A DNA stretch of 26,637 nucleotides, from positions 1 to 26,637 of IMG/VR virus record IMGVR_UViG_3300044951_000278, one strand, 5' to 3'. Below the pieces are notes generated by a model that was given only the letters and a program-made list of their open reading frames with translations, was not told the DNA's origin and searched no databases. A program made the position numbers and the translations under genes. The DNA comes from a virus. Every line of letters begins with the position of its first letter. Positions within the stretch are counted from its first letter, which is position 1. This document shows, one piece after another, positions 4,813 to 26,608 of this stretch.

Positions 4813-5571
4813 ATGAAAAATCCATACAAAACTATTCTGGCTGCTCGTGGCCTACCCTACAAAACAATTCTGGGTGAATCGTCAGCAAAAACAATTAAGG
4901 GTGAAAAGATCGGCTATTTAACGGGTATCGTTTACCTTGTACCCGATGAAATACTTTGCCCTTTGGCTAAACTGGCTGGCTGCTTCGAGGGTTGCCTAAA
5001 AAGTGCAGGGCGTGGCGCATTTAACAGCGTACAAAAAGCCAGGGAATCAAAAACACAGTTTTTTTACAATAATGAAGCAGCTTTCATGCTTTCATTGTGC
5101 GCTGACGTATGGTCTTTGGCTAACAAAGCAAAGCGCATCAATTTAAACCCTTTGGTGCGCCCTAATGGGACAAGTGATATCGCTTTTGAAAATATTATTG
5201 TGCATGATGGAAAAACAATTTTTCAATTATTCCCTGATGTACAGTTTTACGACTATACAAAACACCCTTCACGCAAATTAGACGGGAAAACAGCGGGTAA
5301 TTATGATCTTACATATAGTTTTTCGGCTATTACACCAAAACCTATAAGCATAAAAGGGCTGACAAACCCTAATAATTCCCGTACGGCTGTAGTTTTCCAA
5401 AAGCAAAGCGATATCCCTAATAATTTTCGTGGCTGGCGTGTAATTGACGGGGACAATACTGATGTGCGCCACATAGAACCAAAATCTGTAGTTGTTGCCC
5501 TATATGCCAAAGGGAAAGCAAAAAAAGACAATGGCGGCTTTGTTCAAATTAGGGGTGTTCACTATGCTTAA
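4813..5571 (+). CDS. GP88-like phage protein of unknown function
   Basis: A 252-residue protein that I match from memory to the phage 'gene product 88' family (the name is uncertain). The hallmark is a cysteine cluster near residues 47-58, CPLAKLAGCFEGCLKSAGRG, followed by an Arg/Lys-rich helix (VQKARESKTQFF) and a predicted alpha/beta body. The spaced cysteines suggest a metal or Fe-S site. ATG 4813 is chosen over GTG 4804 because its AGG-N8-ATG spacing matches the preceding gene. It overlaps the next gene's start. The operon is separated from both the structural and replication blocks, so it behaves like an accessory (moron-like) unit. Confidence 0.7.
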   Translation: MKNPYKTILAARGLPYKTILGESSAKTIKGEKIGYLTGIVYLVPDEILCPLAKLAGCFEGCLKSAGRGAFNSVQKARESKTQFFYNNEAAFMLSLCADVWSLANKAKRINLNPLVRPNGTSDIAFENIIVHDGKTIFQLFPDVQFYDYTKHPSRKLDGKTAGNYDLTYSFSAITPKPISIKGLTNPNNSRTAVVFQKQSDIPNNFRGWRVIDGDNTDVRHIEPKSVVVALYAKGKAKKDNGGFVQIRGVHYA

Positions 5572-5788
5572 AACAATGAAAGCAAAATATTTTGGAAAAT
5601 GTAAGTTATCTGGCGCACTTATTAAGCCAGGGGATTATATTTTGTATGACACAAGCAATAAAACAGCACAACTACAACCCGATTCGGACACTATTACCTT
5701 CATCGGTGAGAACGGGCCTTCTACCTTCTACCGAAATAAACGTGGACGCTGTATTGATGCACCATGCTGTGGCTGCTGCACAATTTAA
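5564..5788 (+). CDS. Cys-rich small protein
   Basis: A 74-residue protein starting MLKTMKAKYFGKCKLSG with a C-terminal cluster CIDAPCCGCCTI. One early Cys plus five late ones suggest metal binding or disulfides, though the usual CxxC pairs of a zinc ribbon are absent. I do not recognise the family. The start at 5564 is supported by AGGGG 8 bases upstream, the same geometry as the two genes before it; an upstream in-frame ATG (5492) would lie inside the GP88-like gene without a ribosome site. The 8-base overlap with the previous gene indicates co-translation. Confidence 0.65.
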   Translation: MLKTMKAKYFGKCKLSGALIKPGDYILYDTSNKTAQLQPDSDTITFIGENGPSTFYRNKRGRCIDAPCCGCCTI

Positions 5789-5797
5789 GGGAAATAA

Positions 5798-5851
5798 ATG
5801 ATTTATGCAATTGCAGCCCTAATCCTTAGAATACTTTCAGGAAAACGATAA
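5798..5851 (+). CDS. possible 17-residue hydrophobic micropeptide
   Basis: MIYAIAALILRILSGKR follows AAGGG with 6-base spacing, 10 bases after the previous stop and 5 bases before the terminator stem. The good ribosome site and hydrophobic-then-basic composition make translation plausible; the length makes it uncertain. Confidence 0.35.
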   Translation: MIYAIAALILRILSGKR

Positions 5852-5855
5852 ACCC

Positions 5856-5882
5856 AAAACCCGCCTAATCAGCGGGTTTTTT
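5856..5882 (+). terminator. strong rho-independent terminator of the 4692-5851 operon
   Basis: A perfect 9-bp stem AAAACCCGC/GCGGGTTTT with a 7-base loop (CTAATCA) is followed by further T residues. On the minus strand the same hairpin has four U, so it may also stop the convergent recombination operon that ends at 5959. Confidence 0.85.
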
Positions 5883-5896
5883 GTTGCCTAAAATTT

Positions 5897-5917
5897 AAGC
5901 CTTTACGGGCTTTTTTT
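5897..5917 (+). terminator. second, weaker terminator hairpin
   Basis: AAGCC/GGCTT stem (5 bp, loop TTTACG) followed by seven T. It lies 15 bases after the first terminator and probably backs it up. Confidence 0.55.
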
Positions 5918-5958
5918 GCTTTATGCTACCCTACTATGCACCGATGATAAAAAAACGC

Positions 5959-6261
5959 TTAGAACGGGTTTTTAGTGCTTTTTAGGGGTATCGCTTCGCA
6001 TATTCTGCGGATTGTCTCATTTAATGCTGCTAACTCGTCCATTTTGTAGACGCTCCATAATCTACGTTGACCATGTATCCCGTTTAAGCTTCCCCGATGA
6101 CAATCAGCACACAATGGCATCGATGTAAACCATTGGCCCTGGTTTATTTCATGGCATTCGCTTGGTGGTGGTGAGTCGCAAATAATGCATGACATGAGTT
6201 TAATTTTGGCTATGTGCAGCCTTTCCCCTGCGCTTGGTTTGGGTTTGTTCTTTGATTGCAT
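5959..6261 (-). CDS. Ref-like RecA-dependent HNH nuclease
   Basis: A 100-residue protein resembling the phage P1 Ref (recombination enhancement nuclease) family. It has CIICDSPPPSECHE (residues 25-38), then PLCADCHRGSLNGIHG (49-64) and RRLWSVYKMDELAALNETI. The two Cys pairs plus His residues form the zinc-bound HNH-like core, and GIHG followed by W is typical of Ref. Ref proteins cut DNA at RecA-made D-loops. It is the last gene of the leftward recombination/replication operon; its ATG shares one base with the preceding stop (TAATG). It lacks P1 Ref's long basic N-terminal region, as many phage versions do. Confidence 0.75.
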   Translation of the reverse strand: MQSKNKPKPSAGERLHIAKIKLMSCIICDSPPPSECHEINQGQWFTSMPLCADCHRGSLNGIHGQRRLWSVYKMDELAALNETIRRICEAIPLKSTKNPF

Positions 6262-7793: not shown

Positions 7794-8660
7794 TTAATCC
7801 CCACAGAAGCAAGCAATTGCCTCTTCATTTGGATCAAACATATCTTTTTGCTGAGAAGAATATTTGGCCATGGTTTCATAAGTTGGATGATCTCTGGAGA
7901 AATGAATGACACTTTTGGCAAAGTTATCTTTTGCGTAGCTTTCCATTTCTACCCACCAAACTGCTCTTTCTGGCTTTTCTTGGATAAGAGAAACAATTTG
8001 AGCAACAGGTTTATGAAAACATAAATCACAATTTGAATGAAAACTTTTCCCGTTATACATTGGCGTATTTAAGTTAAATGGTTGAGATTCCCAAAAATCA
8101 CCAATGTGAGAAGCTATTACTCCAGCATCTGCCAGGGGAGTCAAAAAGTCTCCAATCCAATTTTTCTTTCGTTGAGCGCCATTAGACCCTCTCATTTTAG
8201 CTACTCGCCTTTGCTCATCAGAACGAATGCCAACCATCTGGTCGCATGGATTGTCATCAGTTCCAATATTTTGGTCTTTTAAATACTTATGAACAATATC
8301 GATTTTTAGTTCACCAGTGCAAAACCGCATAAAACCATTTGGCAGGGCTTTCTTTTTAATGCACATATCTCGGAAAGGCTCTCCATTTCTTGCAGCCGTT
8401 TCGTAGGAAACCACTTCATAGCCAAGTTTGTTATCTCTCCATTCCAGCCAAACAATTGGAACATTCCAGTTTGTTGAGCAATCGTGAATAAACTTAAGGG
8501 TTGCCTCTTCTTCTTTGCCTGTATTGGCAAAACAAACAACTGCCTCTGGCGGTAGGCTCATGTGGTGAGCTTCTAAAACTCTGTACAACATATATGCGCT
8601 AGTTCTGCCGCCAGAAAAACTAATGCAAGTTGGGGTTTTAATTTCAAATGGATTACTCAT
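7794..8660 (-). CDS. PP-loop PAPS-reductase-family protein
   Basis: A 288-residue member of the PAPS reductase/DndC-like PP-loop ATPase superfamily. The nucleotide-binding loop is SFSGGRTSA (residues 14-22), followed by CFANTGKEEEATLKF. Cysteines in RFCTGELKI, CDLCFHKP and the C-terminal CFCGD could hold an Fe-S cluster. The ECGLH-type C-terminal motif of true PAPS reductases is absent, so sulfite production is unlikely. Phage members are common near replication genes and are suspected of thiolation or DNA-modification roles (DndC is the precedent). ATG 8660 has GGAG 6 bases upstream and overlaps the preceding stop as ATGA. Family confidence is high; function is unresolved. Confidence 0.8.
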   Translation of the reverse strand: MSNPFEIKTPTCISFSGGRTSAYMLYRVLEAHHMSLPPEAVVCFANTGKEEEATLKFIHDCSTNWNVPIVWLEWRDNKLGYEVVSYETAARNGEPFRDMCIKKKALPNGFMRFCTGELKIDIVHKYLKDQNIGTDDNPCDQMVGIRSDEQRRVAKMRGSNGAQRKKNWIGDFLTPLADAGVIASHIGDFWESQPFNLNTPMYNGKSFHSNCDLCFHKPVAQIVSLIQEKPERAVWWVEMESYAKDNFAKSVIHFSRDHPTYETMAKYSSQQKDMFDPNEEAIACFCGD

Positions 8661-10600: not shown

Positions 10601-11215
10601 ATGGGTGTACATAAAAAGTTAATGGATGCAAGGATTCTCTTGCAACAAGCACCACTAAAGAAGTCAGGCCATAACAAGTTTGCGGGTTATTCTTACTTCG
10701 AGCTTGGTGACTTTCTGCCAACAATCAATCAAATCTTCGCTAAAGTAGGTCTGTGCGGTGTTGTATCGTTCGATAAAGAACTAGCAACCCTGACCATTAC
10801 CGATACTGAAGACAGTACAGAGATCAAGCTGACAAGCCCTATGGCAGAAGCTAACCTAAAGGGATGCCATCCAATCCAGAATCTTGGTGCGGTAGAAACG
10901 TATACCAGGCGGTATCTGTGGGTTTCAGCAATGGAAATTGTTGAGCATGATGCGCTAGACTCTTCTGCGCCTTTGAAGGAAGATAAGGTCATCATTAGCC
11001 CAACTCAGGGCGCAATGGATAATATTCCTCCAGAGGAAGTGCAGTACTTGCAAGAGATGGCAGTTGAATTGATTGCTACCTGTGAGCAAGGTGACCCCAA
11101 GGCAGCTTGGGATAAGTTGGAAGGAGAGAACCTTGATGCAGAACAAAAGATTGCATTGTGGACACTCCTACCCAGTAAAGTAAGAAGTGCGTTAAAGAAA
11201 GCGAAGGAAATGTGA
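10601..11215 (+). CDS. erf: ERF-family single-strand annealing protein
   Basis: A 204-residue single-strand DNA annealing recombinase of the ERF superfamily (P22 Erf type). Characteristic segments are the N-terminal KLMDARILLQQAPLKKSGHN-KFAGYSYFELGDFLPTINQIF, the central beta region, and HPIQNLGAVETYTRRYLWVS followed by AMEIVEHDALD. ERF proteins pair complementary strands during RecA-independent recombination and genome circularisation; they usually act with a nuclease and SSB. Here the SSB-like protein is next door and RusA and Ref-like proteins are in the divergent operon. GGAG lies 6 bases upstream of ATG 10601. Length is typical and the key core motif is intact. Confidence 0.9.
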   Translation: MGVHKKLMDARILLQQAPLKKSGHNKFAGYSYFELGDFLPTINQIFAKVGLCGVVSFDKELATLTITDTEDSTEIKLTSPMAEANLKGCHPIQNLGAVETYTRRYLWVSAMEIVEHDALDSSAPLKEDKVIISPTQGAMDNIPPEEVQYLQEMAVELIATCEQGDPKAAWDKLEGENLDAEQKIALWTLLPSKVRSALKKAKEM

Positions 11216-22686: not shown

Positions 22687-23481
22687 TTATTGTGGCTCAA
22701 TGCCAAGTTCTTTGCGTATTTTTGTAGCTGAAATGGCATGAGTAGCCGCATCAAACGACTCTTGCTCTATTTTATATCCAACATCCCTACCATAGGTGAT
22801 ATTAACAATATTTGGCACAAGTTGTATCTCATACTGACCTTGGTATAAAGGGTCTAAATCACGCTTAATAAAGTCTTTTACCTGATTAGCAGCAAAGGGA
22901 TTAGAACCATTCCAACCCTGACAGTCTCTGATCTGAATGACCACTTGACCAGTTTTAGCTAATGCTCTCTCAAAGAGTTTTCTGTGACCTTCATGCCACG
23001 GCTGCCATCTGCCAAGCATCTGAACAGTCTCTTTTTGCCAATCAAAGACGGGGCGTTGGCGGTTGTCCAAGATATGTGCGGCAATGAACTCACCCCACTT
23101 CTCAGCGTTTTGCTCTGTAATTCTGAAGTCATACTGCTCTGGGGCAACAAACACCTTGTTGGTGTCTTCAAAACGACCTTGGTTAATCGTGTCAACCCAC
23201 ACAGTCCAATCAGCTTTGAAGTTGTTTCGCATCTCAACAAGAGGGGCAACGAAGTCGCAGATTACATAGTCCACATCGTAGCTGTCAGCAAGACCACGCA
23301 TCCGCAGACTTTGGCGAATACGACCTTCATGGGAGAAGTCCCAATCGTTGTATTTCTTACGCACATCATCAGCATTCAGCCACATGACTGTTTTATGGTT
23401 GTTTTGCAGATGCTCAAGAACGTGCTGTGCAAGGTAAGTTTTACCAGCACCAGGCAAGCCCATAACTAATATGCGTTTCAT
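22687..23481 (-). CDS. APS kinase-like / HxGH nucleotidyltransferase fusion
   Basis: A 264-residue two-domain protein. Residues 1-140 resemble adenylylsulfate (APS) kinase: P-loop MGLPGAGKT (7-15), LNADDVRKKYNDWDFS (35-50, matching the LDGDNVR...FS segment of CysC), and VICDFVAPLVEMRN (73-86). Residues 150-264 are a short nucleotidyltransferase with GRWQPWHEGH (157-166, HxGH) and ISATKIRKEL (250-259), closest in style to NadM/cytidylyltransferases rather than full ATP sulfurylase. It may make PAPS, the sulfate donor, for the sulfotransferase with which it is coupled (ATGA overlap at 23478-23481). ATG 23481 is preferred to the upstream 23562. The C-terminal reaction is uncertain. Confidence 0.75.
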   Translation of the reverse strand: MKRILVMGLPGAGKTYLAQHVLEHLQNNHKTVMWLNADDVRKKYNDWDFSHEGRIRQSLRMRGLADSYDVDYVICDFVAPLVEMRNNFKADWTVWVDTINQGRFEDTNKVFVAPEQYDFRITEQNAEKWGEFIAAHILDNRQRPVFDWQKETVQMLGRWQPWHEGHRKLFERALAKTGQVVIQIRDCQGWNGSNPFAANQVKDFIKRDLDPLYQGQYEIQLVPNIVNITYGRDVGYKIEQESFDAATHAISATKIRKELGIEPQ

Positions 23482-24299
23482 CCCTTGACCTTGTAAAGTT
23501 GTTTTATTGCAAACTCTGGTGCTGGTGTGCGCCAGAACTCTTTGCCACTGTACTTCTCCCAAACTGACTTAGGAAGAATAGATGGACGCTCTTGCCATGT
23601 CACTTCTTTCCTGACTGTATGCAGACTTTTCATGTTCAAGGCTTTGTCATAGACTTCGTTGTCATACTCAACATTCTTGAAGTCATGGTCATAATAAGGC
23701 TTGCCAATAAACCCATAAATCTCACGCATCACGCTCTCAGGCTTCTTGCATAAAGACTCATATTCCACCAACATAATCATGTCGGGGTTTAGCAGTAAAC
23801 CTTCTTCTAAGAAGTAATAAGGCTTGACCACTTGGCCTTCCTTCTTCACATCCATTAGGGCATCGCATCTTGTGGTGACTGTCTGCCTTGCTTCGTCATC
23901 TGTCAGGCTTGCGCCATACAAAGAGTTCTTAGATGCAACACGCTCAAAGCTATCAAGAATCCAAGGTAAATCACGCACACAGCAAATAATCTTTGTCTGT
24001 GGATACAGGTCTTTTAGCAAAGATGTTTTGGCAGTCCAGCCCCTGCTAGTGTCAAACACTGTGTTTGGCGTAACTGCTTTGTAGTAAGCCTCAAATACGT
24101 CTTTCAGTATTTGCTTGCGTCTGTCTTCATCTATCAGGTGATTGCTCTCGCTTCCAGTAATGACATTGATAGTAGATGTAACCAATCCTTGTACTGGCGA
24201 GGAAATATCTGCATAGAACTCAGGGTTCTGACGCAAGATAGCCGAGAGTAGGGTTGAACCCGACCTTGGCAAACCAGAGATAAAGAAAAACTCTTTCAT
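23478..24299 (-). CDS. PAPS-dependent sulfotransferase
   Basis: A 273-residue sulfotransferase. FFFISGLPRSGSTLLSAILR carries the 5'-phosphosulfate-binding loop (residues 8-16), and IICCVRDLPWILDSFERVAS (104-123) provides the Arg and Ser of the 3'-phosphate site. TFDTSRGWTAKT-like and LVEYESLCKKPESVMREIYG segments are typical of the family (the latter is the 'Y--L---P---M--I--FIG' helix). It would transfer sulfate from PAPS to a hydroxyl or amine on a sugar, lipid, peptide or small molecule. Its start overlaps the preceding virion gene (ATGA) and its end overlaps the APS kinase-like gene. Confidence 0.85.
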   Translation of the reverse strand: MKEFFFISGLPRSGSTLLSAILRQNPEFYADISSPVQGLVTSTINVITGSESNHLIDEDRRKQILKDVFEAYYKAVTPNTVFDTSRGWTAKTSLLKDLYPQTKIICCVRDLPWILDSFERVASKNSLYGASLTDDEARQTVTTRCDALMDVKKEGQVVKPYYFLEEGLLLNPDMIMLVEYESLCKKPESVMREIYGFIGKPYYDHDFKNVEYDNEVYDKALNMKSLHTVRKEVTWQERPSILPKSVWEKYSGKEFWRTPAPEFAIKQLYKVKG

Positions 24300-24721
24300 C
24301 CTTGAGCAACCCAGTTAACTGTAGCTTCATCCCATTGATATGCAACATTGCCGCCATTCATAATGGCATCAGCGGGTCTTGCTATTGGTGCTGCCCATGT
24401 CATTGTGTCCAAGTAACCAATCCAAGATGGATAAGGCTTACGGGCTTCATGCTCGGCAACTTTGGCTGCATTAAATTCTGCTTCTGTCAATACTTGCAGA
24501 ACACCCGCAATGTTTAGGTCAGCGTCTGCATCACAAGTGCCATAGTATCTAGGCGCACGAAGATATGTGCCATCAGAAGCAACTTCTACAGGCCATGTAG
24601 AACTGTCATGCCAAATATGAGTCCAACCTTTAATTGCTGGCATTGATGGGCCTGTGCGTTGTGGCTCGGCTGTGCAGACTATTTTAGTTACTGCGTCTAC
24701 TTCTGTTATGCAAATGTACAT
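24296..24721 (-). CDS. virion or tail-fibre-assembly-like protein
   Basis: A 141-residue acidic protein with MYICITEVDAVTKIVCTAEP at the N terminus and a C-terminal part (KPYPSWIGYLDTMTWAAPIA ... NVAYQWDEATVNWVAQ). The 'PYPSW--...Y-WDE---NWV' pattern resembles short C-terminal modules of cyanophage and other environmental phage tail-associated proteins. AGGAG lies 8 bases upstream of ATG 24721. The exact role is unknown; it follows the receptor-binding candidates. Confidence 0.6.
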   Translation of the reverse strand: MYICITEVDAVTKIVCTAEPQRTGPSMPAIKGWTHIWHDSSTWPVEVASDGTYLRAPRYYGTCDADADLNIAGVLQVLTEAEFNAAKVAEHEARKPYPSWIGYLDTMTWAAPIARPADAIMNGGNVAYQWDEATVNWVAQG

Positions 24722-24736
24722 TGTGGTTTCTCCTAA

Positions 24737-25486
24737 TTAAACTGCAACTCTGCGAACTGCTCGAACACGATGTGCATTGTACTTAGTGCTTTTGAGCTGA
24801 CCGCCAGTACCGAAACTCTGCCTCCATGCGTACTGAGCAGCTTCCTCGGTACTAGACCAATAAACATCTGCTAAACCAAAATCTTCTGTGCCTGTACTTT
24901 GAAAATCAGTAGCAGAAGTTTGTGCTGGTGTTCCAGTAGTGTAATTACTGCCACGACTGGGGACGGCATTGGTGTTAGTGCCTGAAGATGTATCGTTGGA
25001 AGCTGTTGTTGGTTTTAAGTTGTAATAGCAAATTTCTAACTCATTCTTGGCTGGCATATACCAATCTGTTTGACCACCAGTAGATAAATTATTGCAAAAA
25101 TGAGCCGCTGGGTAAACTGTTGCATTGCCATCAGCTACCATGTCAGCCGTGTTTTGTGGGCCATCTATAACACTATCTGCACCAGCAGTTGCGGTGTTAA
25201 CAGTTTTATATTCTTTGGCAGAATCCGCAGAAGCTACAGGCCCAACAATAATATAGTGAGTGGCAACACCGCTTACACCGATTTGACCAGCGTAATATCC
25301 ACCGCCATAGGCTTGACCTATAACTGTGGGTGGGGCAGGATTACCCGCAGTAGGCCACAGCCCTTGCTTCTTAAACTGCATGGCTTGGTCAAGTGTCCAA
25401 ACACCTGTTGCAACGCTTGTCTCATACGGCCCTGCTGGTAATGTTGGACTCTTTGTAATAAACCCGCCTGGATATTTTTGGCTCAT
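24737..25486 (-). CDS. DUF1566/C-type-lectin-like receptor-binding candidate, copy A
   Basis: A 249-residue protein whose C-terminal half matches the DUF1566/Fib_succ-like fold: TDWYMPAKNELEICYYNLKP (residues 140-159), VYWSSTEEAAQYAWRQSFGT and RVRAVRRVAV at the end. These folds resemble C-type lectin/formylglycine-generating domains and occur in phage host-binding proteins. A short N-terminal region (about 1-50) may anchor to the tail. It is a tandem paralogue of the next gene: the 'QNTADMVADGN-TVYPAAHFCN' and 'SGxNTNAVPSRGSNYTTG' blocks are nearly identical, while the last 45 residues diverge. AAGGAA is upstream of ATG 25486. Confidence 0.72.
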   Translation of the reverse strand: MSQKYPGGFITKSPTLPAGPYETSVATGVWTLDQAMQFKKQGLWPTAGNPAPPTVIGQAYGGGYYAGQIGVSGVATHYIIVGPVASADSAKEYKTVNTATAGADSVIDGPQNTADMVADGNATVYPAAHFCNNLSTGGQTDWYMPAKNELEICYYNLKPTTASNDTSSGTNTNAVPSRGSNYTTGTPAQTSATDFQSTGTEDFGLADVYWSSTEEAAQYAWRQSFGTGGQLKSTKYNAHRVRAVRRVAV

Positions 25487-25495
25487 GGTTGTTCC

Positions 25496-26227
25496 TTAGA
25501 CTGCGACTCTGCGAATGGCTCGTACCTGAGCCGAATAGTTCTTGGAGCGCTGATAGTCCTGCAAGCCATTACTAAATGACTGATAATTAGATCTCGTAGT
25601 ATCTTGCTCAGTACTAGACCAATACCGATCAGCTGTAAACGCTTCAGAGCCTGTGCTTGTTATGAAATCAGCAACAGAAGTTTGAGCTGGATTACCAGTG
25701 GTGTAATTACTGCCACGACTTGGGACAGCGTTGGTGTTTGCTCCCGAACCAGTATTGTTGCTTGTTGTCGTGGGTTTTAAATTGTAGTAAAAAACTTCAA
25801 GTTCTTTCTTCGCTGGCATATACCAATCACTAAAACCACCAATCACCAAATCATTACAAAAGTGTGCCGCTGGGTAAACAGTAGAATTTCCATCTGCCAC
25901 CATATCTGCCGTGTTTTGTGTGCCGTTAATAGTGCTATCAGCCCCAGGGGTAGCGGTCTGTGCGTTTTTCCAAATTGTATTAACTTGTGCCGAGGCTTTA
26001 GGCCCAACAACTAAGTTGTAGTCAGCAATACCATTTCCAGCGGTCGAGATTTGACCTGCAAAAAAACCACCACCAAATGCAGAACCAATGGCGGGTAAAG
26101 TAGCGGGCCAATTTCCAGCAGCAAGGGCTTGCAATTGTTGTGGCAGCGTAAATAACCCACTGGCAGCACTAGAAGAAATTGTAGGAGCAGTAGCGGAAAT
26201 TACACCGCCTTTGTATCGCATGGACAT
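25496..26227 (-). CDS. DUF1566/C-type-lectin-like receptor-binding candidate, copy B
   Basis: A 243-residue paralogue of the neighbouring gene, with the same N-terminal (M-YKGG-I), DWYMPAKKELEVFYYNLKPT and YWSSTE blocks and the terminal VRAIRRVAV. The segment after YWSSTE (QDTTRSNYQSFSNGLQDYQR) differs at most positions from copy A, as expected if that surface contacts different receptors. AAGGA lies 6 bases upstream of ATG 26227, and only 9 bases separate its stop from copy A. No reverse transcriptase or template repeat is in the window. Confidence 0.72.
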   Translation of the reverse strand: MSMRYKGGVISATAPTISSSAASGLFTLPQQLQALAAGNWPATLPAIGSAFGGGFFAGQISTAGNGIADYNLVVGPKASAQVNTIWKNAQTATPGADSTINGTQNTADMVADGNSTVYPAAHFCNDLVIGGFSDWYMPAKKELEVFYYNLKPTTTSNNTGSGANTNAVPSRGSNYTTGNPAQTSVADFITSTGSEAFTADRYWSSTEQDTTRSNYQSFSNGLQDYQRSKNYSAQVRAIRRVAV

Positions 26228-26236
26228 TTTTAGTCC

Positions 26237-26608
26237 TTATGTGATTTCTTCAAAGCTAATCGTGGCAACCAAGTCACCAGTTGCACTAGCAAGCGCACCA
26301 ATTGACTGATTCTCTAGTAGGTAGAACGCTGTCGTTTTATCACTCACAATCAATGTCGCATCTGATGGGACAGAGATAGTAGAAGCAATAGCCGTAGCCG
26401 TTCCACCCAAAGCAGCCGCAGAGTAGATATTGACTGTTACTTCAGCCGCTGCTGTGCCATCAATGTTGGCAATCAAGATTGAGTTAATCTTAAATACTTT
26501 ATTGCTTGAAGCAGCGTTTGATGCTAGTTGTGTAGCACTTGTGCCAACAGCAACCGATAAAGTATTACCGATAATACTTGTGACGTTTACGATATTTGGA
26601 TTTGCCAT
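26237..26608 (-). CDS. small beta-rich virion protein
   Basis: A 123-residue Ala/Ser/Thr/Val-rich protein with alternating hydrophobic residues (MANPNIVNVTSIIGNTLSVA, SSNKVFKINSILIANIDGTA, ATGDLVATISFEEIT), typical of a beta-sandwich phage structural protein. Similar small proteins occur before tail-fibre or receptor-binding genes in T4-like cyanophages and other environmental phages. AAGGAA is upstream of ATG 26608. The exact role is unclear. Confidence 0.65.
   Translation of the reverse strand: MANPNIVNVTSIIGNTLSVAVGTSATQLASNAASSNKVFKINSILIANIDGTAAAEVTVNIYSAAALGGTATAIASTISVPSDATLIVSDKTTAFYLLENQSIGALASATGDLVATISFEEIT

Follow-up and report, generated by a model that had tools for sequence, protein, structure and literature searches.

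The lectin pair and its neighbourhood

The window, meaning the whole stretch of 26,637 nucleotides analysed, is a phage contig (26.6 kb) that encodes terminase and portal proteins. It is fragmentary, about 10 kb of the phage genome probably being missing. Named phages are related to it only distantly, and among the best 80 of 125 matches in bacterial genomes there is no close relative, the top identity being 49%, to a gammaproteobacterial MAG. Two lectin genes, ORF-A (25496-26227, 243 aa) and ORF-B (24737-25486, 249 aa), lie in tandem on the minus strand, 9 bases apart. They are preceded by a conserved 123-aa gene (26237-26608, minus strand) that marks the left edge of the lectin array, and followed, across a gap of 15 bases (24722-24736), by a 141-aa gene (g141; 24296-24721, minus strand), a conserved sulfotransferase gene (23478-24299, minus strand; Sulfotransfer_3, E 1.2e-17) and an APS-kinase-like gene. 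A 568-aa gene upstream of the 123-aa gene is seen in the overlapping contig L003, and matches both head-decoration families (2.8e-36) and tail fibre families (1e-34). The family of the 123-aa gene is very wide, with at least 538 confirmed of at least 599 stretches in viral contigs.

Both lectins match the Pfam profile Lcl_C/DUF1566 (PF07603), for which the curated cut-off is 34.9 bits: ORF-B scores 46.8 bits, and ORF-A 34.0 bits alone and 35.7 bits with its neighbours in frame. The structure model of ORF-B has a pLDDT of 84.6, with 89-96 in blocks over the variable segment. Its best structural match is the C-terminal domain of Legionella Lcl (8q4e; VIA Z 12.7, rmsd 3.5 over 124 residues; Foldseek E 9.8e-5), and it also matches 4eps (Z 12.0). 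A C-type-lectin-like fold as in Lcl is thus predicted with confidence, and the lectin-like character proposed in the original prediction is upheld by profile and model together. Lcl belongs to the same Pfam family; unlike the window lectins, it is a bacterial adhesin, it is only 19-25% identical to them, and the available part of PMC11162425 describes no diversity-generating retroelement (DGR) for it. DUF1566 and 4eps are related to the DGR target TvpA according to the portion of PMC4159848 at hand. Neither TvpA nor Mtd is among the VIA and Foldseek matches listed for the model, which is no evidence against kinship.

ORF-A and ORF-B share 60% amino acid identity over their alignment, including the identical blocks QNTADMVADGN, DWYMPAK, YYNLKPTT, NTNAVPSRGSNYTTG, YWSSTE and RRVAV, with few matching residues from YWSSTE to VRA. 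The two paralogues that had been predicted, with near-identical blocks and one diverged stretch between these motifs, are therefore both present as open reading frames. At the DNA level the genes form a repeat of 293 nt at 77% identity, and shorter repeat blocks flank the diverged part (37 nt at 78% and 53 nt at 72%). The C-terminal divergence is real; however, it is not the sole difference, as a single diverged surface would imply, since the N-terminal ~100 residues are likewise diverged.

DGR cassettes and remnants at the same locus

In relatives, the place of the 15-base gap is a slot for a DGR cassette, with g141 as its conserved right border. The gene order in L178 is lectin, Avd (bAvd, 6.4e-11), template repeat (TR), reverse transcriptase (RT; RVT_1), g141 and sulfotransferase, with the cassette at the site of the window's gap. 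The L178 TR (DNYWSSSENSATNAWKQNFNNGNQNNNNKNNSNRVRAVRR) differs from its own variable repeat (VR) at 23 positions, 23/23 of them adenines. A scan with the L178 RT gave at least 80 loci, of which 23 were analysed (L165, L178 and L296-L316). The lectin is present in 16 of the 23 (L165, L178 and L296-L309). In the TR window found at every one of these, A changes number 9-16, and non-A mismatches, of 50, are 0 at 13 loci and 1 at L303-L305; L298/L300 repeat a single sequence, and so do L303-L305. These 16 relatives thus combine RT, Avd, TR and a C-type-lectin target with a VR at its 3' end. The remaining loci, L310-L316, carry RT and partly Avd, with no lectin of 60 bits. DUF1566 is named as a common DGR target domain in those parts of PMC4159848 and PMC6642488 that were available.

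Of 119 distinct loci, 109 contain no RT, TR or Avd. The distance from the lectin frame to g141 is -114 to 156 in the 109 RT-less loci (distinct by g141), versus 1702-1902 in the 10 loci with RT. A tblastn search with the L178 Avd and RT found only three Avd pieces among the loci outside the RT-derived set (L054, L184 and L161). L161 carries a cassette scar, consisting of an Avd start and an RT tail (0/300 shuffles each), and its second lectin has 0 non-A mismatches in 70 to the TR of L165. As the whole L161 record contains no RT, this lectin would seem to bear a DGR-made face beside a deleted DGR. The first of the three L161 lectins (5343-6261) is split in two frames (5343-6008 and 6037-6261) and is apparently decayed. 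An Avd start is also retained in L054 (0/300 shuffles) and L184 (tblastn 1.9e-7). The bases ahead of g141 in both resemble the final part of the RT gene of L165, with the L054 tail not significant at 198/300 shuffles (last 18 bases left out; L184 outside this test). Weaker remnants are found in L113 and L100, which have a leader piece and a short RT tail readable as FNGQLTKLV (0-5/300 shuffles). L055, marked "scar" in the g141 tree, was rejected as a remnant (44/300 shuffles, not significant). No remnant is seen in the window, where the 15-base gap is too short for the remnant test.

In the g141 tree, which has few columns and long branches and was rooted by choice on L302/L303/L306, L054 and L161 group with the RT-carrying L165/L296 (support 99), and L113/L100 fall inside a 40-row set that contains the window (support 96). 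The early forks mix loci with and without RT, and the RT label requires six changes, three of them forced by starred branches. The number of cassette losses is not fixed by this tree because of its few columns.

Template signature and origin of the variable segments

The lectin family was collected from viral contigs by a scan with ORF-A, which contributed 79 loci (the best of 140 matches), and by three scans with neighbouring genes or paralogues (at least 80, at least 79 and at least 80 loci). Among 91 distinct lectins, ORF-A and ORF-B included, entropies reach 2.4-3.7 bits at many of positions 198-234 (ORF-A numbering throughout). This segment corresponds to residues 198-234 of ORF-A (25526-25636, minus strand) and 206-240 of ORF-B (24767-24871, minus strand). 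Among or beside the variable sites are near-invariant ones, S205, F218, G221, K229, V235, R236, A237 and R239 (0-0.9 bits), and this scattered mixture goes beyond chance and has the look of a DGR variable repeat. The AAC/AAT codons of the TR coincide with the hypervariable positions of the family. The segment also varies in length and outside the TR positions (at 198, 199, 210 and 215). Between the window and five relatives, nucleotide identity is 0.89-0.92 in the sulfotransferase, 0.88-0.91 in g141, 0.64-0.76 in the lectin bodies and 0.45-0.59 in the variable segments.

Randomisation of adenines turns AAY template codons into NNY codons. Among four-fold codons of 181 RT-less lectins, the median fraction with a pyrimidine third base is 0.815 at the 14 AAC/AAT positions, versus 0.565 at 110 flank positions and 0.45 at 18 flank positions rich in N/D/Y/H/F/C. 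Pooled fractions are 0.80 at AAY positions and 0.68 at other TR positions, the latter value being raised by conserved sites, among them 235, 238 and 239, which stand at 0.94-0.97. When the lectins were thinned to 164, with the sequences still related, and pairs differing at codon bases 1 and 2 were compared, third-base class agreement had a median of 0.75 at the 14 AAY positions and 0.52 at 108 others (p 2.6e-5), and third-base identity in the same pairs was 0.41 versus 0.33. These tests at TR positions were set up after the discovery of L178. An earlier pooled third-base test, with 0.66 in the segment versus 0.55 in the flanks, is ambiguous alone.

Mismatches of the window genes to the L178 TR are enriched at adenines, in ORF-B at 22/45 adenines versus 15/72 other bases (p 0.0016) and in ORF-A at 25/45 versus 24/72 (p 0.015). 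No such enrichment against L178 is found in the flanks of the two genes (p 0.97 and 0.79). When 70 bases are aligned to this TR without gaps, non-A mismatches number 4 for ORF-B and at best 14 for ORF-A, the median of RT-less lectins being 11. ORF-B thus fits the TR better than ORF-A, and both genes appear to carry the statistical fingerprint of a former target, weakly so in ORF-A.

The adenine bias alone could also have originated from TRs being shaped toward sites that were already variable. The lectins would then never have been DGR targets; their binding surface would have diversified under ordinary selection and recombination, and DGRs would have entered later, with TRs that copied the pattern. 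Such a history would suit the lack of an RT at most lectin loci, the fast divergence of the lectin bodies relative to the sulfotransferase, the length changes and the variable sites outside TR positions. However, third bases conserved only at AAY positions, where the first two bases are scrambled, would be harder to explain in this way, and cassette remnants occur at RT-less loci. Near pairs also lack any excess of amino acid change in the segment: the pN of 18 near RT-less pairs, which are non-independent, is 0.026 there against 0.025 in the flank, which gives no sign of a gradual acceleration of evolution. We therefore regard a history without DGRs as unlikely.

We favour, as reasonably probable, the reading that the window genes are retired DGR targets, small and probably receptor-binding lectins of a tailed phage, with variable faces that are now inherited. 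In an ancestor or donor phage, a DGR between the lectin and g141 would have written the variable face. Its RT would have copied the TR, in which AAC/AAT codons mark the residues of the face, with the adenines randomised, and the mutated copy would have taken the place of the lectin gene's 3' end. Later deletion of the Avd-TR-RT cassette would have left the two faces as stable alleles, with duplication, ordinary substitutions and exchange among copies or phages as the sources of change. It seems likely that the cassette was once present in the lineage of the window itself, or else that the faces were taken from a lineage that had it. The variable face would bind the host, and two copies may widen or hedge host recognition.

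Present state of the lectins and known systems

RT-less lectin pairs with flank identity of 0.86-0.95 have a VR identity of 0.88-0.97 in 12/12 cases, and the nine pairs with flanks of at least 0.98 have VRs of 0.99-1.0; thus the 21 RT-less pairs with flanks of at least 0.86 (VR 0.88-1.0) show no excess VR change. Of six RT-carrying pairs with flanks of at least 0.92, four are identical throughout, VR included, and in the other two a 0.94 flank (just 113 nt) goes with a VR of 0.78 and a 0.92 flank with one of 0.82. Where the flanks of RT-less pairs fall below 0.86, VR identity is ~0.5 in nearly all, so that the change is abrupt. The window itself is matched by L003, from another assembly, with 100% identity across 3,996 bases that take in both variable segments.

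An active DGR within the window was rejected, as the record has neither RT nor TR and the segment is stable in near relatives. No RVT_1 was found in its 26.6 kb, nor a TR for the lectin VRs, the repeats of the window being only the two genes themselves. A DGR could instead be encoded in the unsequenced part of the genome, or work in trans, its source being a co-infecting phage or the host. The fragmentary record allows for this; some known DGRs act on targets far away (PMC8144416 and PMC3521204, in the parts available), and the perfect fit of the L161 VR to an L165-type TR would suit writing in trans. However, RVT_1 is missing from 128 of 129 related records (0/39, 0/40 and 1/50 positive; many are fragments). 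G095 (36.6 kb, with ends that repeat 228 bases exactly, and with a portal and terminase 76% and 82% identical to those of the window) contains neither RT nor TR, and the same holds for G007 and G098, which have exact 127-base end repeats. A TR scan for 388 VRs of 208 RT-less loci, which also covered ten longer records (G037, G059, G088 and G106 to 40,000 bases only), found none for 384; the other four matches lie within lectin paralogues (L162, L163 and, twice, L161). A first scan of family loci and window with 91 VRs and loose limits gave five matches, all paralogues. Together with the identity of L003 over both segments and the retention of the segment in near pairs, this makes a DGR acting from elsewhere unlikely. 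The diversity-generating element outside the window that had been postulated is thus probably right for the past, given the complete DGR at this locus in relatives; for the present it is not supported, given the 15-base slot and the stability of the segments, and the RT expected with it was not found in the window or in those 128 records, nor the template repeat in the window.

The two further routes to altered specificity that had been named, duplication and recombination, fared differently. Duplication is supported, as RT-less loci mostly have 1-3 lectins and one locus has 4. Among loci with 1.5 kb of upstream sequence, one lectin is present in 8/8 with RT and more than one in 38/95 without (Fisher p 0.025, uncorrected for kinship). 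Loss of the mutator may thus have been followed by lectin duplication, a weak suggestion, against which the loci with remnants speak, as a single lectin is found at each of L054, L184, L113, L100 and L055. Recombination is indicated by a few pairs only, in which a shared variable segment on more diverged flanks points to segment exchange (for example L027 3466-4236 and L112 3671-4588, 0.85 on flanks of 0.76). The Erf-like annealing protein of the window (10601-11215) could aid such exchange.

A receptor-binding role of the lectins is plausible from their fold and their position behind a tail-fibre-like gene. They might alternatively decorate the virion or bind to the particle, for example at the head, with variability serving adherence to other surfaces, since they are separate genes rather than fibre domains, the large upstream gene matches head-decoration families besides tail fibres, and Lcl, the nearest solved fold, binds sulphated glycosaminoglycans (PMC11162425, as partly available); this is the least probable of the alternatives, as the lectins lie in a tail-fibre-like gene cluster and the main phage DGR targets are described, in the available text of PMC10743442, as receptor-binding tail proteins.

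The phage group as a whole may alternate between two modes of flexible host recognition, one with a DGR and a single lectin and the other, after cassette deletion, with one or several frozen DGR-made lectins. These would be copied and passed among different phage backbones, and a DGR phage in the same cell might now and then rewrite them in trans. We put this forward tentatively, as a rather speculative extension; if true, loss of the mutator, and perhaps its gain, would be a recurrent and readable step in phage evolution.

The relatives resemble DGRs with DUF1566/Lcl_C targets, of which BPP-1/Mtd is the prototype, in having the lectin, Avd, TR, RT and adenine-specific change. The window and 109 of the 119 loci differ from these in the lack of RT, TR and Avd at the locus, in a stable segment and, at many loci, in having 2-4 lectins. 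The accessible part of the DiGReF study (PMC3521204) describes paralogous targets with as many as four VRs among them, and one genome with a strongly mutated RT near distant targets. The present case is comparable to such degraded or multi-target DGRs, but in that genome another RT still serves the targets, as reported there, whereas here the record and its end-repeated relatives have no RT or TR. DUF1566 DGR targets are thus already known, and the new part is the loss of the cassette leaving frozen, often tandem, copies. No description was found of a phage in which DGR targets persist after loss of the DGR itself, most of the literature being outside the reach of the search, and the fate of DGR targets after loss of the mutator is hardly described in the literature searched. 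Here one syntenic locus is represented by 119 distinct forms, including intact, partly deleted and clean RT-less elements, and such a series makes it possible to measure across relatives what a targeted mutator costs and brings, and what becomes of its products. It also follows that hypervariability of a lectin segment in metagenomic data does not necessarily point to a live DGR.

The sulfotransferase and the APS-kinase-like gene, which has a nucleotidyltransferase-like end, form a sulfation module beside the lectins (22687-24299), of interest because Lcl binds sulphated glycans (PMC11162425, in the part available). The genes for g141, sulfotransferase and kinase are shared by the window with G007, G098, G100 and G088 at 79-95% amino acid identity. 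The portal and terminase of the window have no match in these four at E 1e-10, and the module thus seems mobile between phage backbones. A PAPS-reductase-like gene is located away from the lectins, at 7794-8660.
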